IMG/VR virus record: IMGVR_UViG_3300043466_002174 | Coordinates: 1-32,010 of that record | Origin: a virus | Direction: 5' to 3' (one strand) | Length of the DNA stretch: 32,010 bases | Shown: positions 3,156-26,000 of the stretch, in pieces | Layout: the number at the start of each line of letters is the position of its first letter | Numbering within the stretch: the stretch's first letter is position 1 | Position numbers and translations under genes: made by a program | The notes under the pieces: model-generated | Database searches by the model: none | What the model was told of the DNA's origin: nothing | The model's input: the letters and a program-made list of their open reading frames with translations, nothing else

Positions 3156-3536
3156 ATGCCTCTGTATACTTACGAGAATCCAAAGACTGGCGAAACGATT
3201 GACGTGTTTCAAGGAATGAACGAGGAGCACTCATACATCGACCAGGAAGGACTTATTTGGAAGAGGGTATATCAGGTGCCCAATGCTTCAGTGGATGCCC
3301 AAATTGACCCGTATAGCAACACCTCGTTCGTTGATGCTACAAAGAACAAGAAAGGTACGTATGGAGACTTGCTAGACAAAAGTGCGGAACTTAGTGAAAA
3401 ACGTGCAAAACAGAACGGCGGCGTAGATCCAGTTAAAAATAAGTTTTTGAAGGATTATTCAAAAAGAAGAAACGGCGCAAAGCACCCAAGCGAAAAGAAG
3501 ACTTACGAATCAAATAGGGTTAAGGTCGAGTACTGA
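3156..3536 (+). CDS. FmdB-like small phage protein without zinc-ribbon cysteines
   Basis: A 126-aa protein starting MPLYTYENPKTGETIDVFQ. This matches the start of FmdB/CxxC_CxxC zinc-ribbon proteins (MPxYEYxCxxCG), but both expected N-terminal cysteine positions are occupied by other residues (ENPKTG), as in phage homologues annotated FmdB-like. The remainder (about 50-126) is charged, Lys-rich and probably disordered. The ATG at 3156 is preferred to an in-frame ATG at 3123, because the upstream one lies inside the terminator hairpin and adds a non-homologous extension. The function is unknown; DNA or structural-protein binding is possible. The 3' end overlaps the convergent heptosyltransferase gene by 17 bases. 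Confidence 0.65.
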   Translation: MPLYTYENPKTGETIDVFQGMNEEHSYIDQEGLIWKRVYQVPNASVDAQIDPYSNTSFVDATKNKKGTYGDLLDKSAELSEKRAKQNGGVDPVKNKFLKDYSKRRNGAKHPSEKKTYESNRVKVEY

Positions 3537-4671
3537 TAATTTTATCGATTTGTTTTATAACGTCTTCTGGCGTTATTTGCTTGGTGCATTCAAAGTCTTT
3601 ATTTCTTGGGCACCATTTCCAGTCAGACCTATCAAAAGCTAAACTTGGATCATTCCAGCAGCCGTTGCATACTTTTTCATTGATTATCCTATAAGGCGTA
3701 GAAAACTCTGCGAACGCCTTACTAAATCCGCTTATCAAAACTACTGGAACTCCGCACGCCCAAGCTAACCAAGATAGGCCAGAACCTAAACCAATAAAAA
3801 ATTCAGCCCCAGATATTTGTTCGATTCTTGTTTGAAGTGAGAAGTCCCCAGTTTTATCTATAGCGCCTTTAGGAATAAAATTAAAATTGCTATTATTTCC
3901 AAAACTTGGATATCGGTCTATGCACCAAACTTCGTAGCCAATCTTATTTAGATATTTTATTACCTCTTGCCAGCCATTTTTATTATTCCAGTACTTACAT
4001 TGAGCAGTACTTTGAGTAGCGATGCAAATATATTTTTTATTAGATTTTTTTTGAACGGCCAAATTTGGCCTTCTCTCTACTGGATCTAGACCAAGAGCCA
4101 AAGCTGGAATCTCTGTTAGTGAAACAGTTCTTGGATCTTTCTTTGTTAGGCCCTTCCAATCTTTAATTGGATAGCGAATCCTATACTCTGCATAAAAGTC
4201 ACTAACAAAATCATAATTGTTAAATTTGATAGCTGGATATTTTTCAGCAAAGATTTTGCATAAGTCTTTATTAAACACTACACAAGAAACATTGCATCCA
4301 TGCTTTAATCTGAATTCTTCAACAGCGCCGATATAGGCGATAGAATCTCCGAGGCTAGAGCTATCAAAAACTATTTTTACATTTTTCTCTTTTAAAAAAA
4401 GGGGCTCCTCTTTTATCAATTGGTCGTCTTTAAATACTTGGATCACCCAGTTTACGAAATACTTTGCCCTAGGCGATGCCCACATTCCAGTCTTCAAAAC
4501 AGTTTCGTAAACCATTTGCGAAGAGTCTTTATCTATAAATCTTACCTTAAAACTGCTTTCTGAACTTCCAGTTATTGTAATCTTCGCCCCATCATTGAAG
4601 GTAAACAAAAAATTAGCGTCATTAAAATTTCTTTTGGTATTTTGATAGTTATACGCCAATTGATATTTCAT
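3520..4671 (-). CDS. TibC/BAHT-like O-heptosyltransferase (GT9-type fold)
   Basis: A 383-aa protein resembling the bacterial autotransporter heptosyltransferase (BAHT; TibC/Aah) family, which O-glycosylates Ser residues on beta-helical surface proteins. An N-terminal beta-rich domain (about 1-95) is followed by a GT-B region (VKIVFDSSSLGDSIAYIGAV, then SGAEFFIGLGSGLSWLAWAC). Near the C-terminus is a cysteine motif characteristic of the family: C335, C338, C354 and C362 in the context VCNGCWND...WKWCPRNKDFECT, which binds a metal in TibC. It is the last gene of the minus-strand train, starting within the ATGA of the preceding GT4 gene. In a phage the likely acceptor is a virion fibre protein encoded upstream (inference). 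Confidence 0.8.
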   Translation of the reverse strand: MKYQLAYNYQNTKRNFNDANFLFTFNDGAKITITGSSESSFKVRFIDKDSSQMVYETVLKTGMWASPRAKYFVNWVIQVFKDDQLIKEEPLFLKEKNVKIVFDSSSLGDSIAYIGAVEEFRLKHGCNVSCVVFNKDLCKIFAEKYPAIKFNNYDFVSDFYAEYRIRYPIKDWKGLTKKDPRTVSLTEIPALALGLDPVERRPNLAVQKKSNKKYICIATQSTAQCKYWNNKNGWQEVIKYLNKIGYEVWCIDRYPSFGNNSNFNFIPKGAIDKTGDFSLQTRIEQISGAEFFIGLGSGLSWLAWACGVPVVLISGFSKAFAEFSTPYRIINEKVCNGCWNDPSLAFDRSDWKWCPRNKDFECTKQITPEDVIKQIDKIISTRP

Positions 4672-5597
4672 AAGCAGCTTTTGATCAAATCTATATTATA
4701 CTGCTCATCTCCATCTTTCAAATATTCTATATTTGCATACTTGTCGTACATATCGCAATATGAATTTAAATTATAAATTAGAGTTTTAAGCCTCCATCCA
4801 ATCGCCTCTCTAATCACAAGTGGCGAACATTCTTTTTTGGAAGTAAACACCATTAAGTCTGCGGCTTGATAAAATAAATCAACATCAGACCTTTCTGCCC
4901 ATATCTTACAGTTATCTGGCAAGTCTTTTGTTATCGGCCCCCAATAATCTTTGAAGTTAATGGCTAAGTTACCAACAAAATGAAACTGAAAATATGGCAG
5001 CTTTCTAGCTAATTCAATAAGCTCTCCCTGATTTTTACCCTGAGTAAATAGACCAACATTGATTATGTGTTTCTTTTTCGGATCAAACCCCAATGCGTCT
5101 TGAGCCATTTTCTTTTGTGGCTTTTTTAACTCAATAGGATACTCAACTATCTCAAATGGGGCGCCTAAACTCCCATAAAGCTTAGACTGATATTCAGAGA
5201 CGAATATAAACTTATCCGGTATGAACTTTTTGTTTTGAGGGTCAAAGTAAATGCCGTGTCCAGTTTCGAAGATTAGATAATTTCTATCTGAACTGTATAT
5301 CTTAGCACAAATTTCATTTCTGAGAAATGTTTCTGGGAATTCCTCGAAATGAACTACATCTGGATTTATATCTCTTATAAGCTCGATTAGATACTCATCT
5401 GGCTTTCCAGAAGCAGAATAAAATCTATCGCCCAGCAAATTTTTAATCTTATTCCTTTGAATAACATAAGCGTCCCCTAAAAACTTATGCTCTATGCAGT
5501 AAATTTGAAATAATGAGTTTAAGCTCTCTATCTTCTTTAGAAGGTACTGAGGAAGCCCCCCTGTAGATAAATGAGGAGAAATATAAGCAATTTTCAT
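4668..5597 (-). CDS. GT4-like glycosyltransferase
   Basis: A 309-aa glycosyltransferase starting MKIAYISPHLSTGGLPQYLL, the typical glycine-rich first strand-loop of GT4 enzymes. VVHFEEFPE and FVSEYQSKLYG fit the acceptor domain. NVGLFTQGKNQGELIEL opens the donor-binding domain, and E256 and E264 (ECSPLVIRE) form the E-x7-E motif that contacts the nucleotide sugar. The ATG at 5597 is chosen over an in-frame ATG at 5639, because it aligns with the family start and overlaps the upstream stop as TAATG. It lies between the dioxygenase and heptosyltransferase genes, which suggests a shared substrate. Confidence 0.87.
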   Translation of the reverse strand: MKIAYISPHLSTGGLPQYLLKKIESLNSLFQIYCIEHKFLGDAYVIQRNKIKNLLGDRFYSASGKPDEYLIELIRDINPDVVHFEEFPETFLRNEICAKIYSSDRNYLIFETGHGIYFDPQNKKFIPDKFIFVSEYQSKLYGSLGAPFEIVEYPIELKKPQKKMAQDALGFDPKKKHIINVGLFTQGKNQGELIELARKLPYFQFHFVGNLAINFKDYWGPITKDLPDNCKIWAERSDVDLFYQAADLMVFTSKKECSPLVIREAIGWRLKTLIYNLNSYCDMYDKYANIEYLKDGDEQYNIDLIKSCL

Positions 5598-6757
5598 TAA
5601 TCCGGTAAAGACCAATGCATGAAAAGTTGAACAACACATTCATTTGGCTCACAAATTAATGGCTGTCTCCAATGTTGCATTTTTGTTCCTAAAATCAAAA
5701 TTCCTTCTCCAACATTTGTGTTTGCAGCGATTTCATTGCCCTTTTTATCTATGCAGTATAAAGGCCATTCTTTTTTTAGAGTAGAAAATAAATTTACTGA
5801 AAGGGTATAATCCAAACCTGGTCGATCTACATGCTTTCCAAGCAAGCCTCCATTATAGTATATTCTGGCATATGTATGCTTATCTTTCCATTTAACTCCA
5901 ATTTTTTCAGAAAGATCTTTTGATATTAATCTCAAATAATCATCAAATCTTTTTATTGATCCGAGTCCATAAGAAGGCTTAAAAACACTTGGATCTGAGT
6001 TTGCCGCTGCCAATTGACCTCTATTTTCTGCTGTTAATTTATTAGAAAATTTTAAATAAAAAAGCTCTTTTGCGAACTCTTCGCATGTTTTCTGGTCTAT
6101 TATTCCTTTTAAAAAAGAATACCCAAATTCTTCAAACTTTTCTTTGTCGTGTGATAGTGTATAAGGTGGAATTTGAGGTTTTTTCTGATCAAAAACTCCT
6201 TCTCTGGTCCAGATTACAATTATATATTTTGTGCCAGAAATGACTGGGAGACCAGCATGATTTGATTTTTCATTAAGCTCTCCATTGACTTTTAAATTTC
6301 TCCAGTTAAATAAAGTTCCAATTGTGGGCTTTACTCTTAGTTCGTACTTCGGGAAATCCGTTTCACCCCCTTCAAAATCCTCATTTAGATAGAGGATAGA
6401 AGAAAAGACTCTTTGTCCGCCTCTAACAAGATGGCTCTTTGAGCTTTCTGCATTAGGATTAAAATAATCAAAATGATGTTTATACTCTCCTCCAACATCA
6501 TACTTAATAAAATGCGGCGCCTCTTGGTTTTCAATCGGCAATCCGGTTATAGAAGATACTATATTTTTTAGCTTTTGTATGACCTTATCTTCTTCGGTTT
6601 TTATCCAAGTCCCATTAGCTATTCGACCTTTGCTCTCTACGCTCTCTGTTTGTCCAACAACCTTTAATTTTTGAAGCTCAAGATCATATTTTTTTATCAA
6701 AGCCTCACACTCTTCTTTCGAAAGCAAATTCTTTAATTCTAATATTTCCTGTTCCAT
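5597..6757 (-). CDS. tandem 2OG-Fe(II) dioxygenase, prolyl-4-hydroxylase-like
   Basis: A 386-aa protein with two consecutive 2-oxoglutarate/Fe(II) oxygenase domains. Domain 1 (about 1-190) has the prolyl-4-hydroxylase layout: H95-x-D97 (HHFDYFNP), FNWRN, then H167 (NHAGLPV) with K177 as the 2OG anchor, and GGETDFPKYELRVKP before it. Domain 2 (about 205-386) has H309-x-D311 (GKHVDRPG) and a distal H362 (QHWRQPL), with a conserved-looking WPLY strand; its 2OG anchor is not obvious. Such enzymes hydroxylate peptidyl proline or other residues. The gene sits downstream of a protein with long proline-rich repeats and among glycosyltransferases, so hydroxyproline formation followed by glycosylation is plausible. 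It is coupled to the next gene by TAATG. Confidence 0.85.
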   Translation of the reverse strand: MEQEILELKNLLSKEECEALIKKYDLELQKLKVVGQTESVESKGRIANGTWIKTEEDKVIQKLKNIVSSITGLPIENQEAPHFIKYDVGGEYKHHFDYFNPNAESSKSHLVRGGQRVFSSILYLNEDFEGGETDFPKYELRVKPTIGTLFNWRNLKVNGELNEKSNHAGLPVISGTKYIIVIWTREGVFDQKKPQIPPYTLSHDKEKFEEFGYSFLKGIIDQKTCEEFAKELFYLKFSNKLTAENRGQLAAANSDPSVFKPSYGLGSIKRFDDYLRLISKDLSEKIGVKWKDKHTYARIYYNGGLLGKHVDRPGLDYTLSVNLFSTLKKEWPLYCIDKKGNEIAANTNVGEGILILGTKMQHWRQPLICEPNECVVQLFMHWSLPD

Positions 6758-6765
6758 ATCTTATT

Positions 6766-7848
6766 CTATGTTATTTTTTCGTATTTCCAATAAAAACTAT
6801 GCAGTCTATTCCAGTCGGCAGACTCTTTTTCCCAAGGATATAAATCATACAAGTATTTTCCATAATCAAAATTTATTCCTTTTCTATGAAAATCTTGCTT
6901 TTCGTTTACTCCTCTAATTATATTTATATAGTCAGTGTAAGTAGATAGCCTGCTTCCAAGAAAAACTTCTGCTTCCGAGCATATGATCTGATCTAAAACC
7001 ATGGCTTCATAATTTTTTAGATCTTTAAAGAAATCTTCTAAAAAAAATATTTTATAATCTTTTTTTAAAAAATTAAAAACTGTTTTATCCTTCTCGTCCG
7101 TAGCTATATACAATGGACTGCTATTTGGAATCTTATTTTTCAAATTAAATTGAAGTTCAAACATTTGATTTTCTACTGATTCTTTTCTTGCTGTTAAAAA
7201 ATCATTTCTTCTTACATGTATTGCATTAAAACTTTTTAATATATTTTTTACTTTTTTTCCTTCTTCAAAAAAATAATTTTTATATTTTATTCCATTTATT
7301 ATTTTATTTTTTATTAAATTTCTTTCAATCGGTCCATTGCCATAGACAAGATAATAAAAGTGCCCAAATAGATTTCTTGGAAAGTGTATGTATTTATCAT
7401 CCATGTTTATACATATTCCAGATCTTTCCTTTGCAAATTTTAGATAATCATTTTGACATTGGTTTTCGCAAAATATAAAATTATTTCTATTTATAGATTT
7501 TTGAGGAATCTTCCATTCATGATATTCGTCTGTAAATAAAATTAATTTTGCTATATTTTCAACTCCATGAAAATAATGAATTTCGTTTTCTAAAGACTTA
7601 TATTCATCGATATCATTGTAATCGATACAATCAAAATTTTTAATAAATAAATCTTTGTCCAAAACATTCCATATATCAAAAAAAGATTTTTTATTTTGCC
7701 ATTCAGAAAAAAATAAACAATATATTTTATAAGGAATTATAAGTTTCCTTTTTGTGATTATGCTTATTGCCGCCGCCATTTCATAAGACATCCTTATATT
7801 GCAAAATCCTCCCCACCAAGGGTCAAAAGATATAAAGTTTTTTTGCAT
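6766..7848 (-). CDS. protein O-fucosyltransferase-like glycosyltransferase
   Basis: A 360-aa protein with the motif series of the fucosyltransferase superfamily (POFUT/GT65-68 and relatives). WWGGFCNIRMSYEMAAAIS at 11-29 plus KRKLIIP form the GDP-binding N-terminal loop and first strand. HVRRNDF at 211-217 is the conserved HxRRxDF arginine motif. YIATDE at 247-252 and GSRLSTYTDYINIIRG at 298-313 match the C-terminal donor-binding motifs. The predicted reaction is transfer of fucose (or a related sugar) from a GDP-sugar to a protein or glycan. The gene begins one base after the stop of the Ig-domain fibre gene. Its DNA, especially 7000-7720, is much more AT-rich than its neighbours, which hints at recent acquisition. 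Confidence 0.72.
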   Translation of the reverse strand: MQKNFISFDPWWGGFCNIRMSYEMAAAISIITKRKLIIPYKIYCLFFSEWQNKKSFFDIWNVLDKDLFIKNFDCIDYNDIDEYKSLENEIHYFHGVENIAKLILFTDEYHEWKIPQKSINRNNFIFCENQCQNDYLKFAKERSGICINMDDKYIHFPRNLFGHFYYLVYGNGPIERNLIKNKIINGIKYKNYFFEEGKKVKNILKSFNAIHVRRNDFLTARKESVENQMFELQFNLKNKIPNSSPLYIATDEKDKTVFNFLKKDYKIFFLEDFFKDLKNYEAMVLDQIICSEAEVFLGSRLSTYTDYINIIRGVNEKQDFHRKGINFDYGKYLYDLYPWEKESADWNRLHSFYWKYEKIT

Positions 7849-7849
7849 T

Positions 7850-10800
7850 TTAATTCTCTTGTTCTGGTGGGGGCTCTGGAACGGGCTCGGGCTCTGGAAC
7901 GGGCTCGGGTTCTGGAACGGGCTCGGGTTCTGGAACGGGCTCGGGGTCTGGAACGGGCTCGGGTTCTGGAACGGGCTCGGGTTCTGGAACAGGCTCGGGT
8001 TCTGGAACAGGCTCGGGTTCTGGAACAGGCTCGGGTTCTGGAACAGGCTCGGGTTCTGGAACAGGCTCGGGCTCTGGCGTCGGCTCTGGAGTCGGTGTAG
8101 GCGTTGGCTCTGGAGTCGGTGTAGGCGTTGGCTCTGGAGTCGGTGTAGGCGTTGGCTCTGGAGTCGGTGTAGGCGTTGGCTCTGGAGTCGGTGTAGGTGT
8201 CGGTGTCGGTGTAGGTGTAGGCTCTGGAGTCGGTGTAGGCGTCGGTGTAGGTGTCGGTGTAGGTGTCGGTGTGGGTGTCGGTGTCGGTGTAGGTGTCGGT
8301 GTAGGCGTTGGCGTAGGCGCAGGGGCTGCTATTACAGTCAGTGTCGCAGTATTAGAAGTAGCCTCAAAAGCCGAAACCTCGGTACTCACAATGCAATAGT
8401 AAGTATCGCCGTTATTTCCAAGATAAGTAACTCCAACTTGAGTAAATGAATTACTGTCAGCCGCCCCAATGATTTCAGATCCGTTTCTGTACCAAGTATA
8501 ATGTAATGGACCAGAGCCATCTGCAACAACTGTAAATGTGGCATTGCCACCTTCATTGACGGAAATGCTGTCTGGGTGGTCTGTAATATTTGGATTTACG
8601 TAAAGAGTTGCAGCAGCAGAAGTGTCAGTTAAAGTAAATGATGAGTTATTGCCTACTATGCATCTGTATTGATAATTTTTAATCGCATTAGAGGTTGTTA
8701 CGCTATAAGAACTGGTAGTGGCGCCACCAATTACAGACCACGCGCTTCCATTATTAACCTCCCACTTATAGAATGTCGAAGGATTGCCAGCATCAGCAGC
8801 AACTGAAAATACTGCCTGATCGGTAACGTTTAGATAAATGCTGTCTGGATCATCCGTTATGACCGGCGCATAGTATACCGTAAGAGTGCTTATTGTAGAG
8901 TTTTGGACAGGTAGGCTAACCTTTGAACTATCTACGGCACAAAAATATTCTTTACCATTATCATTTTTTGAAGCATTAAATGTATAAGTATTGCTGGCAG
9001 AAGACTGAAGAAGCGTATCTGTTGGGGTTCCTCCTGGATAAGTTCTTAAATAAAAATCATACCCAAGAGTGCCAGCGCCAACCGCTGTAGTAACATACGA
9101 GACTGAAGCGCCTTCATTTACTGTTGGATTAGAAACTCCGTTGCCCAAAAATTGAGTAATTGTTATTGGCAATAAAGTCACTGTCATTTCGCAGGCTGAA
9201 CTCTGTTCAGCTTCTGTTCCAGCTTGAGTCGAAGATATTTCGCATCTTATGGACACTCCAGAATCATTTTCGTCAACTGTGTGATAAAAATTAGGAGAGT
9301 TTGCCCCAGCAAAGTTTTGCCAACCGGCACCGGCATTTTCTTGCCATTGGTACTGAAGAGTTGGGGAAGAGTCGCCTAAGACATAAAAGTTAATTACAGT
9401 ATTGTTTTGGCCGTTTCCAACCTGAGCCGAAACTGAAGCTGGAAGATCTGTAACTATTGTTGGATTCATATATAGCGTAGCTATATCTGAAAGAACGCCG
9501 CCTCTAGTATTATATCCAGAAACTCTATATTGATAATTTTTATTGCTTGGTTCTACACTTACCGAATAATTACTAAGAGAACCATTGCTTGGTACGGGGG
9601 TAAAACTACTGCTTCCTGGTGGCGCGTAATACCAAAGGTAGCTTGGAGACGGCTTTCCTTGAGCCAAGCTTTGAAAAGTAGCGACGCTACCGCGTTTTAC
9701 AAATTGATTTGTTGGTTGCAAATCAAAAGAAGGAATATATTCTACTGTCAAAGTAACTACATTAGACAAATCTGCTGTCATTCCTGCAAAAGAACTTGAT
9801 ACAATACATTGATATTCATTTCCATCGTCACCTCTTGAGGCTGTAAAAGAATATCCGCTACTAGTAGCTCCAGCAACAGAGCTTAAAGGCGCACCAGCGC
9901 CAGAATACCATTGGTAAGATAATGTTGGAGATCCGTCTGCAAAAAGAGCAAATGATGCAGTTGTATTTTCAAGAACACTTACATTTTGAGGCTGAACCAC
10001 AATATTGGGATCTACATAAACATAAATAGGGCCACCAGTTACATTTGCACCTCTTGTATTTCCGACAATGCATCTGTAGGCAAATCCGATATAATCGTTT
10101 CCTGCGTTTGTTAGAGTCAATTTGTCAGTGCTACTTCCAGCAAGACCCCAAGAAGACCCTCCATTCGTTGACTCCTCCCAAGAAAATGTTGTAGTTGGGC
10201 TTCCTGATTCAGATAAGAAAATAAACAAATCGTCTGAACTTCCAAATCCAGCTTTATTCATTATAAGGTTTGGAAATGGCGTAAGATAGTCTATTGTAGC
10301 TGGAAACGCTACAGTTAGTGTAGCTGCTCTACCTGTCTTTGGGATAGTTGGATAACCTTGTATATTTAAGCTATTAGATATTATGGGCCTAAATTTATAT
10401 TTATTTTGAGATTTTAAAGCTGAAAAAATAATATATTCAAAAGAATTACTGCTTTCTATATTGCTCCAAGTTGAACCTCCATTAGTTGACTGCTGCCAAG
10501 TGTAAGACAGACTTGATCCTCCAGCATCGCTTTCAAAAGTAGCAGAATCTCCGCTATCGACTACAATATCAAAAGGTTTATTATTGTTCTTTATATATGG
10601 CTGAATATATAAAGTAGAGTCCTCTGTTACATTTGATATGTATCCGTTTGACAAGAATACGGAATAAACTCCAGAGTTAGTTTCATTTTGTATTTCGAAA
10701 CTTAAAACGGGATCTGTTGAATAATTAACTCCATCCCATTTCCACTGATAGCTATTAACTGGTGGATTTGATCTTGTCAAAACTGTATAATTAACTAGAT

Positions 10801-12043
10801 CTCCAACCGAAAGTAAATATTGATCAGTAGTAATTGTGCCACCAGTAATCTGTAAATATGCAACATCTAATCTTGCCTGCCTTGTCCCAGTTTCCCAATA
10901 GCTTACGTTATCAGCTTTATAATTAAGTATATAACATCTATAAAATCCCGTATCAGCAACTTGAAGATTATCTATTTCTAAAACGGGGCTTTGAGCACCG
11001 TTATACTTTGCGCCGTTAGATAAATTAGTCCAAGTTCCATTTTGTAATTTTTGCCAATAAAACGAAGCGTCGGATCTGCCATCAGCGACTGTACTAAAAA
11101 TCAAATCGTTTTGATTTTCTATTCCTGTGATATCAGACGGCTGCGCCAGTACTGTTGAAGGGTAATATACAGAAACAACTCCCGAATTCGATCCAGAAGA
11201 TCCAATAGTATTTGTAGCCTCGCATATATATCCGTAATTATGAATAGTTCTTGGAGCATTTGCTATCTGTAAAGTCTTTGTCGTAAAGTTTTGATATAAT
11301 CCTCCTTCAGAAGTAGTGATATTTGACACTGTGCCTGCGACATTTTTTTTCCATTGAAACGTTAAGCTCGCCCCGCTTGGGTTACCGCTCGCCTCTATAC
11401 CAAAAGTCGGAGAATCTCCTTCATTAATAGCAATACTATCTGGCTGATCCCATATTTTTGGTGAAAATTTTATATTAGCATAAGCTATTTGAGAAAAGCC
11501 AGAAGCTTCTACGTTTTGAGCGTAGCACTTATAAAACCCTTGATCATTTAAATAAAGTGAGTTTGGCTTAGAATAGCCAGTTGTTTGGGCGCCAAAACTA
11601 GAACCAAGAGAAGAAAAATCAGCTTCTGTTATGCCAGAAAGATACCATTGATAACTTATTGGATCTATACCGCTTGCCTTAGCGGTAAATGCTACAGTCT
11701 GCCCTTCTATAATATCTATGTTTTGAGGGTTAACCAAAAACGTCATCACACCCTCAAATCCAAATCTTCTAAAAATATCTTTTAAATCAATGTATGTTTC
11801 CCCAACCTTTACAAAAAAATTTGTCGCAAAATTTATTCTATCATTTTCGCTGGTTGATTTGTGAAATATCCCAGATAAATCCAAAGAATTTACTTTAAAA
11901 AAAGTCTGAGTTTCTGTAAAAGAACCCGCACCAGTTTGCGCGGTAAATATTCCAGTTAGATCAAAATAGCCAGAGTCAGGTATATCAATGTTTACATTCT
12001 GTGGATTTGATATGTAAACCTTATAATTTGTCGGATCTGGCAT
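7850..12043 (-). CDS. giant Ig-like repeat virion protein with proline-rich C-terminus
   Basis: A 1397-aa putative tail appendage. Residues 1 to about 105 form a phage-type N-terminus with three DL(T/S/K)xIF elements. Residues about 108-1238 hold twelve Ig-like domains, each with a Q-P...EG...F start, a YQW-type strand and a closing YxCxVxN/S strand; most keep only part of the Ig cysteine pair. Residues 1241-1397 are almost purely Pro/Thr/Glu/Val: PTP repeats, then PTPTPTPE units, then eleven PEPEPV units, ending PPPEQEN. Ig-like domains on phages are thought to bind carbohydrate weakly and reversibly. The start overlaps the upstream S74 fibre gene by 23 bases. The downstream fucosyltransferase-like gene follows after one base, suggesting that the proline-rich tail is a modification substrate. 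Confidence 0.88.
7874..8071 (-). repeat. 18-bp tandem repeat x11 (PEPEPV units)
   Basis: Eleven head-to-tail copies of an 18-base unit (plus strand CTCTGGAACGGGCTCGGG and variants) encode PEPEPV. One copy carries E to D. Variation is mostly A/G at one position, splitting the array into two blocks (six with ACGGG, five with ACAGG), consistent with recent slippage duplications. It is in frame, so copy-number change would lengthen or shorten the stalk without a frameshift. Confidence 0.95.
8082..8177 (-). repeat. 24-bp tandem repeat x4 (PTPTPTPE units)
   Basis: Four identical 24-base units begin at 8082, 8106, 8130 and 8154 (each starting GGCTCTGGAGTC), followed by a fifth degenerate copy to about 8198. 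They encode PTPTPTPE. Identity at the DNA level including third positions shows recent expansion. Confidence 0.95.
8187..8320 (-). repeat. 6-bp GGTGTN repeat (PT dipeptides)
   Basis: Hexanucleotide GGTGTA/GGTGTC units with a few GGCGT(A/T) variants encode alternating Pro-Thr, interrupted by one PE. The block begins the proline-rich segment right after the last Ig domain. PT-rich linkers are classical O-glycosylated stalks in other proteins. Confidence 0.9.
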
Positions 12044-14336
12044 GATTTATTTTAATTTTCAAAGCATTTATTTCCGCAGAAAGCTCTTTTATCGCCTGAA
12101 TTAAAATTGGAGTTAACTTGCCATAATCAATTCCAACAATATCTCCTTTATTATTTAATCCTACAAGGTTAGGAATAACTTCGTTCACTTCTTCAGCAAT
12201 TAAACCAATATCATTTTTTAAATCTTTAGTTTTCCAATCAAAAACTACTGGCCTAAGTTTCGAAACAGTTTCCAAACCATTTTTTAAATTTTTAATTTTC
12301 TTCTTGAATCGTTTCGAAGAAGTCGATGTATATGTTGGCGCTTCAATACTTGTTTCAACTATTAATTTCCCACTGCCACTATTTGGCGCGCCGCTTTTAA
12401 CAGTGTCGTTTTGACTTCCAATAGTTACGGTTCCGTTTCTTTCTATAATCAATCTTTTAATTCCAATTAAATTAGCGCCTGAATTAATATCACTTCCATA
12501 ACTTGTTCTAAAAACTATAGATCCATCGTAAAAATCTGTAAATGAAGACGCCTCTGCATTTGACGTTGGATTTTTTTTATATCCAGCGGATAAAATTAAT
12601 TGGCCGTTTGCTTGCCCAGCCGGTCCAGTCGCATCAACGCCTACAAAATCTATTTGAGAGCCTCCTTGCACGCCATTTTCGTCTCCTCCCGTAATTGTCA
12701 AAACAGAAGTTTTATTTACATATCTTATTCCAAATCCAGAATTTATAGTTAAACCAACCCCAGAGCTTCCAGATGTAGACTCAGCAACAAGACTTCCATT
12801 TACTAATAAATTAGTCCCGTTCCACCTTAGATTATTACCAGTAGGATTTCCTATAAAAAATTGATAAATCGAGGTTGGCGTAGGCGTGCTTTCGGCAGAA
12901 CTATTTCCTAAAAAGAAACCAGGGCCATTTGTAAATGCACCATAAGCCCCAGAAGTTCCATCAGTTCCATTAAAACCAAGCCCTGCTGATTTTATGTAAC
13001 CTTGATCACCTATTGTTAAACCCTTTGAATCTATTCTTACGGAATCCTTAACATTTCCAAAATGCCCAGTTTTTGCCCAAATATCACCATCAATTATTGC
13101 GTCTGAAAGTTGAATTTGACCGCTACCTACAATTCTAAATCCTTGTATATCGGTTCTTGTTGATATATCGCCAGTATTATTTACTTCGTCCCAATATGTT
13201 GTCCAACTTGCTCCAGAACCAGGTTTATTTACTGAACTTGATGTGTGAGTTTGCCCTGTTTTGACTTTATAAACTTTATAAGCCCCAGCATAAATTCCAG
13301 TTGTTTGCTTTATTCTTACTCTTGTTTGATCAGAAGGTGTCGTTTTTATATCCTTGTACTGCTTGTTAGTAACCCACTCTTCTATAAAACTTTTAGACTG
13401 AATATATGAATTTTCATTTGGCAATTCTATAGCCTGAGAACTTAAAAATCCAGCAGTGGCTTTACCAATATCAACGGTTTCTATAATAGCTTCTGTTATT
13501 CTTACCCCCTGAACAGTGCCTGTTATTGTTGTTGATGAAACAGAACTGCTAAAAGGAGAAATTATGTAAGTTCCTACACTTCCAGTTCCAGTTAAAAATG
13601 CTTTAATGATTGGAGTATTAGGTCCATCAGGAACTCCACTTCCAGTCAAAACCATATTTAACCTTATTGGTCCAGAAGTTACTGCGGTTACTGTTAATGT
13701 GGCGGTTCCGTCAGTACCGCTTGCAGCTATTGAACCAGTAAATACAGCACTATAATTTCTAACAGCAAACGGAACTCCGCTAATTGCTCCAGCAGAATTC
13801 GTTATTTCAAAGTTATCAGCGACCATTACAAAATTTTTAGCGAGAGTATCTCCAACTTTAACAAGGCCAGAAACGTTTGAGTTTGCATCTAGCTGCAAAA
13901 GAGACTTTGTGCTTCTTTCCCAAACGCTAGTCGAAGAATTATAAACAAAAGCTTTATAATTACCGTTTGTAATATACCAAATATCTCCATTAGCTGGACT
14001 GGGATTGGTTATGGCTGGGGTCGGAACTGGATTTAAAATATTAGGATTTACCGCATTCCTATAATAAATTTGCACGCTTCCACTTGCAGAATTTTGACTT
14101 CCGTGTACTGAAGCAGTTGCTAGTTTTGCAATAGTTTCATTATATCCCATCTCATCCCAAAGCTCTTCATTTGTTTCTGGATTTACTACCTTGCCCTCAA
14201 AAACAATCCCTCTACTTCTAAAAAAATTACCTCTCTTTACCTTTTTGGTCCTTTTGGTAGAGTTCTGATAAAACAAAATCTCATCTTGATCATCAATAAT
14301 CGTCGCTTCTTGAAGGTCTGCGATTGTGCGGCTCAT
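12021..14336 (-). CDS. tail fibre/tip protein with C-terminal S74 intramolecular chaperone
   Basis: A 771-aa fibre protein. The N-terminus ([20 protein letters not shown]) and the segment around [20 protein letters not shown] with PFAVRN resemble the distal part of lambda J-like tail tip proteins. The middle is beta-rich and glycine-rich. The C-terminal 99 residues (673-771) are a Peptidase_S74 chaperone: SSKRFKKKI with Ser673 and Lys678 as the likely cleavage dyad, [42 protein letters not shown] and a final coiled coil. The domain trimerises the fibre and cleaves itself off. The usual Asp after the catalytic Ser is Ser674 here. The 3' end overlaps the Ig-protein gene by 23 bases. Confidence 0.88.
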
Positions 14337-14351
14337 ATGTTTATTTACAGT

Positions 14352-14370
14352 TAATTATTGGCAATAATTA
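14352..14370. other. 19-bp near-perfect palindrome in a gene junction
   Basis: TAATTATTG and CAATAATTA (perfect 9-bp complementary arms) flank a single central G. It covers the stop of the RCC1 gene and part of the 31-base gap before the S74 fibre gene, one of the few gaps in the minus-strand train. Symmetry with a one-base centre resembles a dimeric operator more than a hairpin. The function is unknown. Confidence 0.4.
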
Positions 14371-16521
14371 TATATTATATAGTCTAACTGGGGTATACGT
14401 ATTATAATTTCCAAGGGCGCCATATTCGCCAAGTCCAAAAGACCACCCTACATTATTTTCGTCTGTAACTATAAAGTGTTGCCCACCAGAATCTATCTTG
14501 CAAAAGCGTTTTTCAGAATTTACAGCGATAGGGGCACTTGTCATTCTCCAAACAAGGCCATTTTCATCAATCGCGCATATTCCAAGTCCTTGTATTTTCC
14601 CAGCGCTTAATTCGTTAAATTTTATATTTGCGCTTACTCGTATTGGAGTTCTGGTTGCTGTCCAGTTAGTATGACCCAAAGAATTTCTGAATCTATTATA
14701 TCCCCATGTCCAAAGGTTCTTATCTTTATCTATAGCGGCTGACATATTACCTCCAGCAGATATTTTACAAAATGTTGTGCTGCCATAAACTGTAACAGGG
14801 CTCGTTACATTTTGACCGAAGTCATTATTTCCAATTTGACCCCAGCTATTTAAACCCCAAGCCCAAATTTTTCCATAATTGTCTAATGCTAAATTATGTT
14901 GAAAACCCGCTGATATTTGACAAAAAGTTTTTGAATTTAAATAAGGCAAAGAAACTGGAGTAGTAACAGAGGCTATGCTGGCATCTAAAGTTAGATAGCG
15001 AAAGCTAGAGTTGTTTGCCCCCCAACCCCAAATTTTATTTTGATTATCTATAGCAAATGTAAATGACCCTCCAAATCCAACCATTATTTTACAAAAAGTA
15101 TTAGTTCCGTATATTTGAATAGGAGTCAATTTATAAGAAATTGTTGCTCCACCAGAATAATTATTTCCCAATGCTCCTGAAGCTTCGTTGCCCCATCCCC
15201 ATACTTTCCCGTTTTTATCAATAGCTTGTGTCCGATTAGCCCCAAAGGCTATTTGGCAAAAAGTCTTAGGTTGGCCTGCTAATTCAGTAGGAAACATTTC
15301 ATAATTTGATATTTTATTATTACCTATTTGAGCGTTACCATTATTCCCCCATAAAAAAACCTTACCATTTTGCTGTATCCCAGCAGACGTTGTAGGCCCC
15401 ACAGCTATAGAATTAAAAGTTTTTTCGCCACAGATCTTTCTAGGAATAAAATCTTCATAAAACCTATTCACGCCTAATTCTCCAACGCGATTTCTTCCCC
15501 ATCCCCAAACTCTACCATTTTTTTCAATTGCAATTACGTTTTCCCAACACATACTTATTTCACAAAATGTCTTTTTTTGACCTGAGATACTAACAGGAGT
15601 AAGAGTTGAAACTAATTGATGGCTATCTCCAAGCGTACCCCAAGTATTATTTCCCCATCCCCATACTTGACCGTTTTTATCAATTAGCGCAACAGTAGAG
15701 AACGCAACCCCTTTTGCAATTTTACAAAAAGTTGTGTTTCCATAAACCTCAACAGGGGTTAATGAACTTGAAGCACTTCCATTCCCAAGGTAATACGAAC
15801 CCCATGCCCACGCTTTTCCGTTTTTGTCAATAGCTAATGATTTATCGTATAGCACTGATATTTGACAAAATGTTTTATTACCATAAACATTAACTGGGGT
15901 TATTCTAGAAACATTAGACCCATCTCCAAGAGGATTAGATCCCCAAGCCCAAGCTTTACCATATTTGTCCAAAGCATACGAATTGACAAAGCCAATACTT
16001 ATTTGACAAAATGTCTTGGGGCCTCCATAAATAGCAGTAGGTGTTGATTTACAAACATTAGAATTGTCTCCTAATTGACCATAATAATTATCTCCCCACA
16101 TCCATATTTGACCATACTTATCGATTCCACCACAAAATCCACTTCCTCCTGATACTTGACAAAAAGTTTTATCTCCATAAACTTTTACAGGAGTTCTTCT
16201 AAAAGTGCCAGCATTAAGTCCATCTCCAATAATACCTGTTCCCCAGACCCAAGCAGTACCACTATCATCAAGAGCAATGACTGAACTTCCTCCAGATGAA
16301 ATTTCATTAAATATTTTTCCATATCCAAGTGTTTTAACCGGAGATGCAGCGGCGGTTTGAGAACTTATATTTTTATTTCCAAACGCAGAAACCACATTAC
16401 TGCCCCAAGCCCAAAGTTTTCCTTTTTGGTCAATTGCATTTGTTCCTCTTAAAGAATTAGTCCCTGCCATAGCAATTTTTTTAAATAGCTTTTCTGTATT
16501 TAATGATTCTTTTGCTTTCAT
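14368..16521 (-). CDS. RCC1-repeat beta-propeller tail protein
   Basis: A 717-aa protein built from fourteen RCC1-type repeats of about 50 residues. Each has an (I/L)D-x-x-GK-x-W-x-WG core (for example AIDKNGKVWGWGNE) followed by a TPVxVYGxKTFCQIS-type strand. Fourteen repeats would make two seven-bladed propellers or one double ring. RCC1/BNR-like propellers bind proteins or glycans; on a phage tail a receptor-binding role is likely (inference). There is no signal peptide. It lies one base downstream of a tube-like gene and directly upstream of the S74 fibre gene, inside the tail module. The many near-identical blades suggest expansion by internal duplication. Confidence 0.87.
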   Translation of the reverse strand: MKAKESLNTEKLFKKIAMAGTNSLRGTNAIDQKGKLWAWGSNVVSAFGNKNISSQTAAASPVKTLGYGKIFNEISSGGSSVIALDDSGTAWVWGTGIIGDGLNAGTFRRTPVKVYGDKTFCQVSGGSGFCGGIDKYGQIWMWGDNYYGQLGDNSNVCKSTPTAIYGGPKTFCQISIGFVNSYALDKYGKAWAWGSNPLGDGSNVSRITPVNVYGNKTFCQISVLYDKSLAIDKNGKAWAWGSYYLGNGSASSSLTPVEVYGNTTFCKIAKGVAFSTVALIDKNGQVWGWGNNTWGTLGDSHQLVSTLTPVSISGQKKTFCEISMCWENVIAIEKNGRVWGWGRNRVGELGVNRFYEDFIPRKICGEKTFNSIAVGPTTSAGIQQNGKVFLWGNNGNAQIGNNKISNYEMFPTELAGQPKTFCQIAFGANRTQAIDKNGKVWGWGNEASGALGNNYSGGATISYKLTPIQIYGTNTFCKIMVGFGGSFTFAIDNQNKIWGWGANNSSFRYLTLDASIASVTTPVSLPYLNSKTFCQISAGFQHNLALDNYGKIWAWGLNSWGQIGNNDFGQNVTSPVTVYGSTTFCKISAGGNMSAAIDKDKNLWTWGYNRFRNSLGHTNWTATRTPIRVSANIKFNELSAGKIQGLGICAIDENGLVWRMTSAPIAVNSEKRFCKIDSGGQHFIVTDENNVGWSFGLGEYGALGNYNTYTPVRLYNI

Positions 16522-19289: not shown

Positions 19290-20059
19290 TAGATAAATCC
19301 TTGATAATTAAGAGTCATGGACACTTCATCTGTGGCAGAACTATTAATTGATTCTCCTATGAATTCCATATTATTAACGGTAAAGGTAGCTAGTGACCCT
19401 ATAGTTATATTAATATTTTGTTTATTTGAGTCTACAATATAATCAAAAGCTCTTTTTGATTCGTAGTCATAAACGCCAAGAGTAAATTGAGCGCTAACTC
19501 TATATGGCCTAATCGTTTCTACCTCCATTGGGGTTGAGCCAGTTGGGTGATAAATAGGCATACGTGGACATTCAACTGTGTATGTAAAAGCTTCAACTCT
19601 ATTTGTTCCTGTACCGTCGCATCGAATTAAAATATCGCCCGGTCTGACAACCGATAAAGGATTACTTGTAGAACTAGTCGTGAATCCAAGTCCAGTTCCT
19701 ATATTGCCAAATATTGAGAAATCTGCTGATAGCTGAGGAAAATTTCCTACCGCACATGAAACATTAAAAGAATTTAAATAAGCAGATTGAAAAGTAAAAT
19801 TTTTATTATTATAGAACAAACCTCCGCTCGCTTGTATTGCGCCAGTATAATTTAAAATATGGTCATTTTGGCATAAGTATTTTTGAAGGCTCAAAGTTGC
19901 TTGAGGCGGGCCACTTATAAAGGTATTAAATTTTCTATAACCAATAACACTTAAATGCTCAACGGGAACCGAATAGCCAAAATTTACATCAGAAACGCCA
20001 AGTATTTTGACGCCACTGAGGTAAAAATTACTCTCATAATTTGATACAGAAGATTTCAT
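19289..20059 (-). CDS. tail tube-like structural protein
   Basis: A 256-aa beta-rich protein directly downstream of the tape measure gene, starting on its stop codon (TAATG). The N-terminus reads as a tube-type beta sandwich (LSGVKILGVSDVNFGYSVPVEHLSVIGY, then PPQATLSLQKYLCQNDHILNYTG). Later elements (AYLNSFNVSCAVGNFPQLSAD, RPYRVSAQFTLGVYDYESK, NMEFIGESINSSATDEVSMTLNY) form the second sheet. Its element order is shared with the larger tube-like protein two genes later. Position next to the tape measure supports a tail tube or distal tail role, but no diagnostic motif is visible. Confidence 0.58.
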   Translation of the reverse strand: MKSSVSNYESNFYLSGVKILGVSDVNFGYSVPVEHLSVIGYRKFNTFISGPPQATLSLQKYLCQNDHILNYTGAIQASGGLFYNNKNFTFQSAYLNSFNVSCAVGNFPQLSADFSIFGNIGTGLGFTTSSTSNPLSVVRPGDILIRCDGTGTNRVEAFTYTVECPRMPIYHPTGSTPMEVETIRPYRVSAQFTLGVYDYESKRAFDYIVDSNKQNINITIGSLATFTVNNMEFIGESINSSATDEVSMTLNYQGFI

Positions 20060-23000
20060 TATCTACCTGATCTCAACGATCCGCCTAAGCGCTTTTCCTC
20101 GTTAATGGTTTCGAGGACTACAGCTTTAATCTTTTCAGACATTTTCTTATAGTCTATGCCGCCTTGAGCAGATTCACCTTGAGCCTTAGTCTCCGAAGTT
20201 CCAGAGCTTGTTACGTTAACTGTGATATTAACCTCTGGAGCGCCCCTTGTTTCGAGCTTGCTGGAAAGATTATCAAATTTCTCGCCAAGCATTTCACTGC
20301 CGCCACCAACTTCACCTCCATTGGCAAATCTTGGAGCGCGGCCTTGATTTAATGAATCAAAAAACTGCTTTCCGTGCTTCTTTACGGCTTTGTTGCTCAT
20401 TACATATTCGCCATCCATAAGAAGAGCGGGAACTTTATCAACTGGGCCACCATTTGCATATTTGGGAATTGGCCCACCATAAGCCTTAAATGGCGCTCTT
20501 GGCATTAAAGCAGTATAGCTTCCAAAAGAGGCTGGTCCAGACGAAGCAGAAAATGATGGGCCTGCACTCAATGGAGAAGCGCCAGGAGCGATTCTACTTT
20601 GAGAATACAACTGGGAGCCTATTCCTTGTCCAGAGTATGAGGTTGGACTGGGTCCGCCCAATGCCCCAAGTCCAGCATTCAATGCTGCTGAAATTACAGT
20701 TTGCTTCAATTGTTTTTGGAATGCTTTTCTTTGCTGTGTTCTATAAGCCTCTCTTTGCTGTATTATGTCCAACCCTTGCTGCTGCGCTGATCTAATTTCT
20801 TGATTGACTATATCGTCCTCATTAAGAAGCGCAAATCTTGAAAGTCTCATGCTTTGGTCTTCAAGATTAATGAATGCCGAAGATTCGGCTCCTCTCATGA
20901 CATCGGTTGCGCCACTGGTTGTAACTTGATTTGCGAATCTGGTTAAATCTTTATAACCAGAAATATTACCAGCGCCACGAACGCCAGGAAGGAAAATATC
21001 GCCGCCAGCAGCAAATGTAGGCATTCCCCCAGAATTCATTTTTTCAAGATTTGCGGCGCCATATTTCTCTACAGAAGATTTGCGAATTACATACTCGCCT
21101 TGACTAAGCATTGCTGGTACATCGTCTTTGTACCCACTGCCCCCAGTAACCAATCCGCCAGTTGCATACCCTTTTACAATTTTTCCACCACTAACAAAAC
21201 CCCCAGTGGCTGCTTGAGCCGGACCTTTTGGAAACACGGTTGGGAAAGCATTCTGCAAACCAATCATTGCCTGATTAGAAGCCTGCTGCAAGAATGCATT
21301 CTGCATAGTCTTCAAAAAGTTCATCGCAACATCTTGCAAAGCAGCGCCAAGATCATCAGTTTGAGAAATTGCCGCTCCTAAAGCGTCCCTCATTCCATCT
21401 CTAAATGCGAGAGTAGTATTTTTAGCGAATGTCTCTTGGAAGTTTTCAGACTCTTGTTCAATTTCGTTAAATGCCGCAAACATTCCTGCTTTGGCTGGAG
21501 ATTCGGCCCTTAGTTGGGCAAGTTTTGTTTGAAATTCTATTTGTCTTTGCTGCTGTTTATTATATTCCTCCAGTAATATTTTTGCTTGTTCAACTGTTAA
21601 ATTATATTTTGCTAGCGCATCTTCGCTTGATTTTATAGCCTTTTCTGTTTCTGCAAGTTTTTTCTTGTCCTCTGGCGTAACGTATCCCAAATCTGCTTCT
21701 TCAGAAGTTGTAAGCTCTAGGAGATTAGATCTTATTTTTTTTAAGTTTTCTAAAGTCTGAGTTAGGTCAGAAACGCTTTTTGCATTTTGCAACGCTTTTT
21801 CGCTTGTCTCTATAAATCCTTTTCCAAGCTCAGAAGATCCTTTTACATTAGAAATAATAGAATTTCTTAATTCTTCAAAACTCTTTCTTTGTATGTCAGC
21901 AAAATCATTATCAATTTTTCTTTGGGCGGATAATTTGGCAAATTCTGCTCTTAACTTAATTAGTTGCGCCTCTTGCTCTCTGGTGGCATATGGCTGAGTT
22001 GCAATTTGATTTTCTAATTGAGCGATAGGAGTTCTTGCGCGAGCTTCTTCTAGAGTTCTATCGCCAGTAATTCTAATGTCTTCAAGCTCTTTTTGCGCTT
22101 TAAAGCCTTCCTCTAAATAGCTTAATCTTAATCTATCTATATCCAAAGCCGTCTTTGCTGCTATATTTGCCTTTTCTCTTGTCTTTAGAGCCTCCCTTTC
22201 TGCGTCGCCCAATGTTCTCGTTACCTGCAATTGAGATTCGTATTTTGTAAGTATGTCTTTTGCCTGAGCAGCACCTTCAAGACTAATCCCATTTATAGTC
22301 GTCAAAACACTTTCTATTTCGCCGCCAGCTTCAATTTGCGCTAACATGTCTTTTAATTTATTTTCGTCTACTGTAGCCAAAGCGCTTGAATTCTTTAATT
22401 CAGTTAAAGAATTTTTTAGCAAATCTGTTCTTGCGTCGCCTTGTTTTCTGTCAAGGTCTAACAATTTTGATTTTAGGTCTTCTTGCCTTTTTTGACCCTC
22501 TGTCAAAAATAAAGACGCTTTTATTTCTTCTGCGTCAGACCGTGCTCTTTCTTTTATTTTTGAAGCTTCTCCCTTGGCAAATGATTGGTTTATTCTGCCT
22601 ATTTGGGTTGTTAAAGCAATTCTTTTTCCCAAAGAATTTAAAACTTCTGAATTTCCAGCAAGTTCTTGATTTCTTTTTCTTTCCTGCTCGTCTGCCGCTG
22701 TTTTTTGCAAACCCGCCAATACCCTTTCATTCGCAATCAAAGATTCTTGAAGCTTAAGATACTCTTCATCTTCTTTGGTTTTTTGAGGTGGAGTTATTCC
22801 AGAAAACATGGCTCCTCCCTTTGCCGCTTGAGCCATAAATTCTGCTTGAGTTTTTGCCCTTTCGTCTACACCAGGTTGAAGCTCGGAAAGTCTTGCCTGT
22901 ATTCTTGCAAGCTCTTGTTGGTTTTTTTGTATAGATTGCTCTGTATTTGCTGTATTTTTTATTACGTTTTGTTGCTGTTCTTGGGCTTCAGCTTCTCTTT

Positions 23001-26000
23001 TCTTTTTTGGAGCATTTTGCACCTCTCTTATTATTGAAAACAGTTCAACTCCAGCACCGATTGCCGCTCCAATAAGTCCTGCTGACTTTCCAACCTGTCC
23101 AATTGCTCCAAGAAGACCGCTTTTACCAACTAAATTTTTTGATAAATCTCCAAACGCTTGACCTAAAAGCGCTCCTTGAGACGCTGCCTGAGTGACGCCT
23201 GTAATAGCAACTGCAAATTTTGCAATCCCATTTTCAGATTTACCTAAAGCTTGCTCAAGAGCATTCGCCGCAAGAGTCAAACCAGAAAAAGCATAAAATG
23301 TTTTATCTAGAGAAAATCTTTCTCCCGAAGCCTCCCCCTTGCCTGATCCGCCGCCTCCTCCAGTTTTAGATTTATTTTTTTCAAATCTTTTTGCTGAATC
23401 ATTGACTTGAGTTTGTAATTTATTCGTTGATTCTGCGGTTAAATTATTTTTCGCCGCTAAATCTTTTATGGCTGTATTTAGTTTTGATTGGTCAATTGCA
23501 CCTTCTTCAAACTGCTTTAAAAGTTTATTTGCTGATCCTATCAGACTTGACTGCAAATCTTTTGGTATGCCTATAGCTTCACCAGTTGAAGATTCTGCGG
23601 CTTTATATCCACCCTTGGGAGTACCAATAGCAAAGTTTGGAATAAAGCCCTTTGCGGCTTTTCTTCCATCCTTCTCATTTATTCTATTGGAAGGAACTTT
23701 GCCATTTGGCTCATCTCTGGTATTTATGACTGCAATCCCTTCTGGATTGCGGGTTGTCATTAAACGATCATCTCTTGTAACACGAACTTGAGAAGGCTTA
23801 ACTCCAGCGGCAATTTCTCTATCAACGGCCTCTTCTAATGGGTCAGCAAAGTTTGGAACAAAGCCAAAAGCGGCGGTCAAAGATCTCGGCCCTACCTTTT
23901 TAACTGCGCGAGCCTTGCCGCCAGTAGCTCTTATTGCGGGCCAAGGAGTTGGATCGAAAGGCGTTGGATTATTGAACTTTGCAAGAGCATCTGGAGTATT
24001 TGCTTCTGGTCCAACACCGCCAGTTGTGGCCTTTTGCAGAGCGATAAAATCATCAGCTAAAGCAGGATTAGCTAATACTGCTGAAGTGAAAGCCTCTCTC
24101 TGACCCGGTAGTCTTGAAATTCCAATTTGAGCTTTTGGCCCATAAACTCTTCTGGCTGAATCAAGAATTTTTTTCTTTAGTTCCTGACCTAAGCCTTTGT
24201 TGGCGGGAGATGCGGGATCAAGGTTTATGCTAGATCCAGCGAGAAATGCATCAGCGGTATCAAGATCATAGAACTGCCCAGATGGAGCTAAAACGTCTTG
24301 CTGCTTTAATCCTTGAGCAAAGTTTGGAATATACCCTTTCGCCGCAGATCCAAAATCGACTAAAGACTTAATCGAATCTCTACCACCTTGTTTTTGCGCT
24401 ATTTCCGACAATTTTTTGGCAACTATTGGATCTAAACGTTTTACATAGTTTAGATCTCCCATCTCCAAAGCATCTAAATTAAACAGCATCCCAAAACTTT
24501 TGCCCATTCCTGCGACAATTTTTTCTTTGTTCTGATTAAGATAGTCCTTGTCTTCTTGGGTTATCGGAACCTTTATTTTTGTGGTCTTTTGCGCCGCAAC
24601 TCTTGGATTATTTAATGAACTTACTTTTGTAAGTTGAGAAAGTTTTAACGACGCTGCATCTTTTTCTCCTTGTGGAGCGGCAGGGTCTGAGACGATTCTT
24701 CTCATTGCGTCTATTGCGTTTTGAGAAGCAAAATTTGGAATAAACCCAAAAGCGCCGCGATTTCTTAAATTTGCATTTATGCCGCGAGATCCAAGAGCCA
24801 TCAAGTTCTCTTCTTCATCATCAACGATAGATCTACCAGTTTTCTCCGCGAATAACGCTTTTCTTTCTGGAGTGTAAAGTTTTCTCGGACCTCTTTTGCC
24901 TTGAGCCCTGCGATTTTCAAACATTGATCCAAGAGGAAATACTTTTTCAACATTGAGCCCGAGATTTTGGGCTACATTTTTAATTGGATCTTTAAATAGA
25001 ATTGGTCTAGCAGTTGCAATATCAAACTTTTCTTTTGAAGCGGCAAGCTCTTTGCCCACGGGAAGAAGATCCTTCTTTTCAAGTTTCTGGATCGACTGAA
25101 TATATTCTTCGGGCTTTCCTGAGATTTTTGGAATGATAGTGCCATCCCAATCATACATTTCTGTAAGTTTTTCGGCATAATTTGGAACAAATCCTTTTGC
25201 GGCAACTTTCTTTGGCGCATTAGTCATTTCCCTGATCTCTTCTTTAACTAAATTATTTTTTACTGCCTGACTTGCAAATCCTCTTAAAACGCCATCAGAA
25301 ACAGAACCTTTAAGATCGGCGCTTCTTTCTCCTCCAGTTATTCCGAAAGCCAATCGCATTGGATCAGGAATATTTGGAACGTCTAAAGTATTAACTTTAT
25401 CACTTTCAAAATTAAAAGCTACTCTTGCGGCAGATTCAAAGATGCCTCCGACAACACCTCCGAAAGCTCCAGCAGCACCAAAAGATTTTTTGTATGATTG
25501 TTGATACTCAGCTTGGCTGACCTGTCTTCCAGCCAGATCTGAAGAAACAGAAGTGCCGAAATCTAAAGCTATTTTATCTAATGGCTCTTTGATCTTTGGA
25601 ACAGCGCCAAGTTTTGCTTGCTGCAATCCACTATCCTTTAAGCCATAAACTGGGAACTTTACTCTTCCAAATATTTTATTTTCTGGCTCTTTTGGCTCAA
25701 AACCCCAAGGATAAGTTTTATCTGTTCTGACTTTTTGCTCATCAGCTTGATCCTTGACCAGCATTGCCGCAGTACCAAAAGTATTGCCAACCCTATTATT
25801 TATTACTTTCTCTGCCTTTGTTTTTAATTCCTTTTCTTTTGCGGTAAGCTGCTTTTCGCCAACCGCCTGCTGCTGAAAATTTGGAATATAGCCATCCGCT
25901 GCATTTTTTACGATTCCAAAATTTCTGGCCTTTGTTTTTACTTTTTCGATAAAATCAAATTGATTTAGTGGAGCGTATTTTGTGCCCGCAATCTGCTTCT

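Follow-up and report, generated by a model that had tools for sequence, protein, structure and literature searches.

The O-fucosyltransferase (O-FucT)-like gene at positions 6766 to 7848 of the window, the whole 32,010-nucleotide stretch of viral DNA analyzed here, is probably one component of a phage-encoded cassette that hydroxylates and O-glycosylates proline-rich virion proteins. A proline hydroxylase, protein glycosyltransferases and proline-rich virion proteins recur together in phages, and this set probably sugar-coats fibres in the style of the hydroxyproline-rich wall proteins of plants and algae. What the analysis shows is the enzyme families, their folds, the intact active-site motifs, the operon layout and the recurrent linkage.

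In the window, the cassette is a run of five minus-strand genes that overlap or are separated by 1 to 8 bp. In order, they encode an Ig-repeat fibre protein, O-FucT, a prolyl 4-hydroxylase (P4H), a GT4 and a homologue of the TibC-type protein O-heptosyltransferases. The first gene (7850 to 12043) encodes a fibre- or adhesin-like protein of 1,397 aa, the putative acceptor, with eight stretches that match Ig_3 in Pfam (161.9 bits) and a low-complexity (TP)n/(EPEPVP)n tail at the C-terminus that includes TPTPTP and has 21 prolines in 40 aa. This proline-rich tail is retained in the related loci L003 and L008 while the Ig part differs. The upstream context of the cassette is a tail fibre gene with an S74 chaperone domain (12021 to 14336, minus strand; PF13884, 46.7 bits; PHROG tail/baseplate matches), and a second GT4-type glycosyltransferase, encoded on the plus strand (1616 to 2713; PHROG 2170 glycosyltransferase, 52.2 bits), is a possible further member. 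The tail region also encodes a 717 aa RCC1-repeat protein (14368 to 16521; RCC1, 180 bits), with a related protein in L003, and an ORF of 2,919 aa (20059 to 28818) is present between the tail genes and the end of the window. Neither a GT60 (PF11397) gene nor genes for GDP-fucose synthesis are present in this 32 kb fragment.

The 360 aa product of the minus-strand O-FucT gene (ATG start) is classified as a POFUT-type O-fucosyltransferase-like glycosyltransferase based on its Pfam match, fold and conserved residues. The match to PF10250 (O-FucT; 41.9 bits with a cut-off of 31.5, E 1.2e-10) extends over residues 6 to 312 and positions 2 to 323 of the 326 in the profile, so that nearly the full domain is present. 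The preliminary description assigned this phage gene to the POFUT/O-FucT superfamily from four motifs, GGFCNIRM, HVRRNDF, YIATDE and STYTDYINIIRG; all four are present in the ORF, and the assignment is backed by Pfam, PDB sequence and fold comparisons. Against PDB sequences, phmmer and a profile search both placed POFUT2 first, with HVRRNDF aligned to the HLRRKDF/HWRRRDF sequences of POFUT proteins. An AlphaFold2 model, obtained with an alignment of 28 phage homologues (pLDDT 86.8, pTM 0.89), gave fold Z scores of 20.9 with POFUT2 (291 residues), 17.5 with POFUT1, 15.8 with plant FUT1, 15.1 with NodZ and 13.8 with FUT8. As the values for POFUT2 and POFUT1 exceed those for NodZ and FUT8, the modelled protein is, among solved folds, closest to the protein O-fucosyltransferases. 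Residues H211, R213, R214, D216, F217, D251, S302 and T303 are among those invariant in all 28 phage homologues. The catalytic glutamate of POFUT2 (GT68) is E54 in the human enzyme; the N-terminal region of the phage protein is outside the aligned part of the PDB sequence alignments to POFUT2 and, by eye, the GGFCN sequence seems to resemble the POFUT1 type. With POFUT2 and POFUT1 (GT68 and GT65), the window protein shares the Pfam O-FucT domain, the HxRR.DF motif and a fold over 272 to 291 residues, but only ~14 to 18% sequence identity and, unlike POFUT1 and POFUT2, members of the phage clade are often fused to a carbamoyltransferase or a GT60. No Pfam match to an EGF or TSR domain was obtained in the seven plus six window proteins scanned; the upstream fibre has Ig domains where the acceptors of POFUT1 and POFUT2 have EGF or TSR domains. 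PHROGs returned a weak match only, to a family of unknown function.

The adjacent gene (5597 to 6757, minus strand) encodes a 386 aa protein with a P4H-type 2OG-Fe(II) dioxygenase in its N-terminal half (PF13640, 51 bits) and a second, HxD...H oxygenase-like domain in its C-terminal half. Profile searches matched this protein to bacterial, algal, human and Chlorella virus PBCV-1 P4Hs (E 1e-44 to 5e-30), with values for the N-terminal half of 3e-44 for the Bacillus, 5e-36 for the Chlamydomonas and 5e-30 for the PBCV-1 enzyme. Its fold gave Z scores of 25.9, with 35% identity, for the Chlamydomonas P4H with (Ser-Pro)5 (3gze) and 22.5 for the PBCV-1 P4H. The active-site residues H95, D97, H167 and K177, which constitute the iron site and the 2OG-binding basic residue, are nearly invariant. 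By profile and fold, the N-terminal half is of the prolyl 4-hydroxylase type. The C-terminal half, which has the second HxD...H set and is a stand-alone gene in L009/L010, was barely sampled by the fold search, and its assignment therefore stops at this motif. The pathway that generates plant and algal hydroxyproline-rich glycoproteins has in common with the window the closest hydroxylase fold and acceptor-like (X-Pro)n repeats, but it employs other glycosyltransferase families and operates in a secretory pathway rather than in a phage.

Downstream on the minus strand are genes for a GT4-type glycosyltransferase of 323 aa (4668 to 5639; PF00534, 33.8 bits) and a GT9-like, TibC/BAHT-type protein O-heptosyltransferase homologue of 383 aa (3520 to 4671). 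The latter aligns full-length with TibC (4rap; phmmer E 1.2e-80 over residues 17 to 378), with the catalytic D110 and all four iron-finger cysteines (CxxC..C..C) matched, and contains the N-terminal barrel domain TibC_1st (PF21129, 36 bits). TibC O-heptosylates serines, not threonines, in autotransporter proteins (PMC4358343). The window protein has the D110 and iron-finger cysteines of the TibC/AAH heptosyltransferases but is phage-encoded and adjoins a fibre protein, whereas the TibC/AAH partner is an autotransporter (PMC4358343). In L115, one ORF of ~1,450 aa (3907 to 8271) has matches to the window GT4 and also to the window TibC-like protein, with genes for a P4H and a (TP)7 protein beside it.

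IMG/VR scans provided 45 viral O-FucT loci for analysis, representing 15 lineages at 80% identity, in which enzymes were called with local HMMs and a proline-rich ORF was defined as one with at least 15 prolines in 40 aa. A P4H is encoded nearby in 12 of the 15 lineages versus none of 119 random viral loci, as detected by an HMM trained on O-FucT-linked hydroxylases and applied identically to these controls, and a proline-rich ORF is present in 9 of the 15 lineages versus 3 of the 119. In four records of 23 to 65 kb, the sole PF13640 gene adjoins the O-FucT gene. The O-FucT and P4H distance matrices are correlated (r 0.85; 0 of 2,000 permutations), as shared vertical descent alone would also predict. 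In L033, L042 and L048, the proline-rich partner gives a match to a PHROG of structural virion proteins. O-FucT is fused in many lineages to a carbamoyltransferase of the NodU type, and a GDP-mannose 3,5-epimerase (GME) is present in several. The linkage has exceptions. The L047 record (111 kb) has no PF13640 gene; its O-FucT (GC 24%), which forms a sister lineage to that of the window, lies beside an S74 fibre and a (TP)n protein. L057 also lacks a PF13640 gene, and no proline-rich gene adjoins O-FucT in the cyanophage clade (S-SCSM1, L011-L024, L049-L060).

GT60, the family of the polypeptide α-GlcNAc-transferases of protists (PMC8724618), is present or fused in L033-L037, L039-L046 and L025/L062, and is fused to or adjoins O-FucT in L025/L062, L033 and L042. 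L025 is the clearest case, encoding an S74 fibre, a 518 aa (APTP)n protein with a collagen-like GPPGPPG end, a P4H, an O-FucT-GT60 fusion (7134 to 9866, with the (APTP)n/collagen-like protein upstream), a second GT60 (9863 to 10792) and a carbamoyltransferase. When used as a single-protein query, L025 matched only itself. No discussion of GT60 in a phage context was found in the literature searched. The combination of P4H, GT60 and fucosyltransferase in L025, L033 and L042 follows the logic of Skp1 hydroxyproline glycosylation and of the mucin-type GT60 α-GlcNAc-transferases in protists (PMC8724618), although the Skp1 system has a single proline acceptor, the phage loci have repeats and the window itself lacks a GT60.

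The association was also approached in reverse, with viral contigs chosen solely by the presence of coding repeats, (TP)5 or APTPAPTPAP, and not by enzyme content; two sets of controls were picked, one by a random-start pattern and the other by a Gly-Thr repeat. Repeat-selected contigs and controls were scored with the same P4H HMM, trained on O-FucT-linked hydroxylases. Among the matches listed, a P4H, GT60 or O-FucT was present in 13 of 110 (TP)5 loci and 4 of 109 APTP loci, and in 0 of 84 and 0 of 119 control loci. Pooled, again among the matches listed, the counts are 16 of 216 versus 0 of 203 (p 1.9e-5) and, for contigs with a GC content below 0.47, 15 of 123 versus 0 of 129 (p 1.3e-5), statistics in which the contigs are not independent of each other. 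The immediate neighbour of the repeat gene is a P4H in L145, L163 and L171 and a GT60 in L135 and L151. Those calls that were tested against Pfam were confirmed, for P4H in L171, L163, L145, L115 and L102 and for GT60 in L163, L135, L151 and L159; a weak O-FucT call in L171 had no Pfam match. Given that the enzymes were found in only 16 of the 216 repeat-selected contigs, among the matches listed, most phage (TP)n proteins are not linked to these enzymes.

Cyanophage S-SCSM1 is the only cultured phage found to carry O-FucT. Its protein, ORF113, is 36% identical to the window O-FucT over 98% of the length, and the gene has 2OG genes on either side, genes for GMD, GDP-fucose synthase (FCL) and GME downstream, and many glycosyltransferase genes. 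T4-like cyanophages carry many 2OG genes, with 24 in S-SCSM1 (PMC9602691), and the adjacency of O-FucT and 2OG genes in this phage and its cyanophage clade is therefore weak evidence. Two S-SCSM1 proteins annotated as virion proteins have long proline-rich stretches, SSCSM1_19 (PRPQP repeats) and SSCSM1_217 (SPTPTPRPSPTP). The cultured jumbo phages XacN1 and RAS14 have a GT60 and a carbamoyltransferase gene near a giant TP-rich protein (L302, 11989 to 15706; L303, 12001 to 15818); no P4H is present in the region fetched, and these are therefore partial examples only. Mycobacteriophages have glycans at the C-termini of capsid and tail-tube proteins (Freeman et al. 2023, as cited in PMC12619734), and so share phage-encoded glycosylation of virion proteins with the system proposed here, but that citation mentions no hydroxylase or POFUT-type enzyme.

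The preliminary description suggested that the O-FucT gene was a late acquisition inserted between the fibre and hydroxylase genes. The compositional contrast on which this was based is real. With a GC content of 25.2%, the gene is, as stated, more AT-rich than both the upstream Ig/fibre gene (41.0%) and the downstream 2OG gene (33.9%), and than the window as a whole (37.9%); the A/T runs that were noted are visible in its sequence and the GC content falls to 22% in windows 7001 to 7500 and 7251 to 7750. As a sign of late import, this contrast fails. FYMINK residues constitute 48% of the protein and, when re-encoded with codon frequencies taken from the remaining window genes, the protein has a predicted GC content of 29.0%, so that ~70% of the GC deficit is accounted for by amino-acid composition. 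The GC3 value of 0.20 compares with 0.22 to 0.27 for tail genes and 0.25 for the 2OG gene, and the residual codon shift (z -4.9) is similar to those of the RCC1 (-5.7) and S74 fibre (-4.5) genes. The gene is at the same locus, in the same gene order, in L003 (96% aa identity) and in L005/L008 (84%), and the vertical inheritance in related phages that had been named as counter-evidence is thus seen in the relatives sampled. As these relatives retain the gene order under purifying selection (dN/dS 0.10 to 0.15), a late insertion is unsupported; inferred from composition, it is rejected by the codon and amino-acid decomposition together with the synteny. Relative to L003, dS is 0.16 for O-FucT and 0.19 for the hydroxylase, values similar to each other, and 1.3 and 2.7 for the downstream GT4 and TibC-like genes (3520 to 5639), both above 1.2, consistent with the pair having been co-inherited across a recombination boundary that the sequence comparison places after the hydroxylase gene. 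The gene may still have come from cells through an older transfer. Pattern-seeded scans of GTDB genomes identified no cellular relatives of O-FucT, none were found on plasmids, and the O-FucT tree, which is internal to phages, has long branches. That the gene is a recent horizontal import of a eukaryotic POFUT gene, functionally unconnected to its neighbours, is very improbable. The GC content of 25% and a eukaryotic POFUT2 as the nearest solved relative are as such an import would predict, but the gene belongs to a phage clade with 15 lineages and recurrent partners, is held at the same locus by relatives at 84 to 96% identity with dN/dS of 0.10 to 0.15, and has a composition mostly explained by its amino acids.

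Of the functional alternatives to a virion-protein cassette, remodelling of the host surface, in which O-FucT, the glycosyltransferases and the GDP-sugar genes would change LPS or capsule on infected cells and so confer superinfection exclusion or masking, is the likeliest, though still unlikely. ORF113 of S-SCSM1, annotated as a GDP-fucose protein O-fucosyltransferase, was grouped with cell-wall and LPS genes by the authors of that genome, who proposed for it such a role in cell-wall/glycan modification and made no connection to virion-protein hydroxylation (PMC9602691), and many glycosyltransferases, GMD, FCL and GME are encoded near it. The window and most lineages, however, have O-FucT among tail and virion genes, beside a P4H and a proline-rich virion protein; the neighbouring glycosyltransferase is of the TibC protein-modifying type, the O-FucT fold is nearest to protein O-fucosyltransferases, and a prolyl hydroxylase would have no role in LPS modification. 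There is very little likelihood that the 2OG oxygenase, glycosyltransferases and carbamoyltransferase instead alter the bases of phage DNA, in the style of TET/JBP-glycosyltransferase systems. Co-occurrence of 2OG oxygenase, carbamoyltransferase and glycosyltransferase genes, and the annotation of S-SCSM1 ORF125 as a DNA β-glucosyltransferase, are consistent with this, but the 2OG gene is a P4H by profile and fold: PF13640 was matched with 51 bits while Tet_JBP had no match in the window protein at E≤1 and just sub-threshold matches in relatives. Furthermore, O-FucT and TibC are families that act on proteins, and the proline-rich virion proteins would be left unexplained. A cassette that modifies virion proteins accounts for more of the linkage than does either of these two alternatives or an unconnected recent import.

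In the proposed virion-protein pathway, the P4H-type dioxygenase would hydroxylate the upstream Ig-repeat fibre protein at prolines of its (TP)n/(EP)n tail, and the POFUT-type enzyme would then transfer a sugar from a GDP-sugar to threonine, hydroxyproline or a pre-existing sugar. The donor would be GDP-L-fucose or, in lineages in which GDP-mannose 3,5-epimerase replaces the fucose genes, GDP-L-galactose. Further sugars could be attached by the TibC-like and GT4 enzymes, on this protein or on neighbouring ones. The outcome would be a stiff, extended, sugar-coated fibre segment resembling plant and algal hydroxyproline-rich glycoproteins, and the phage might gain reach or protease resistance from it, or use it in masking or receptor binding. 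These enzyme activities, the donor sugar, the acceptor residue (Thr or Hyp) and the benefit are predictions from family, fold and gene context. A more specific version, that tailed phages have hydroxyproline-linked glycosylation in which a P4H of the algal hydroxyproline-rich glycoprotein type acts on (X-Pro)n and POFUT-type and GT60 enzymes glycosylate the resulting hydroxyprolines, is put forward only tentatively; if true, phage fibres would be the first hydroxyproline-rich glycoproteins of bacterial viruses.

The O-FucT, P4H, TibC and GT60 families, and glycosylation of phage virions, are already known; no paper that combines a phage P4H and O-FucT with proline-rich virion proteins was found in the open-access literature searched. 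Phage 2OG-Fe(II) oxygenases are abundant in aquatic phages and are usually explained in terms of nitrogen or 2-oxoglutarate metabolism. If the proposed pathway is correct, there would be a function for many of these unassigned oxygenases, and soluble, cytoplasmic POFUT, GT60 and P4H enzymes that act on simple repeat peptides. Phages would then own a hydroxyproline-rich glycoprotein system, and there would be a testable picture of the sugar-coated phage fibres that hosts and grazers meet.
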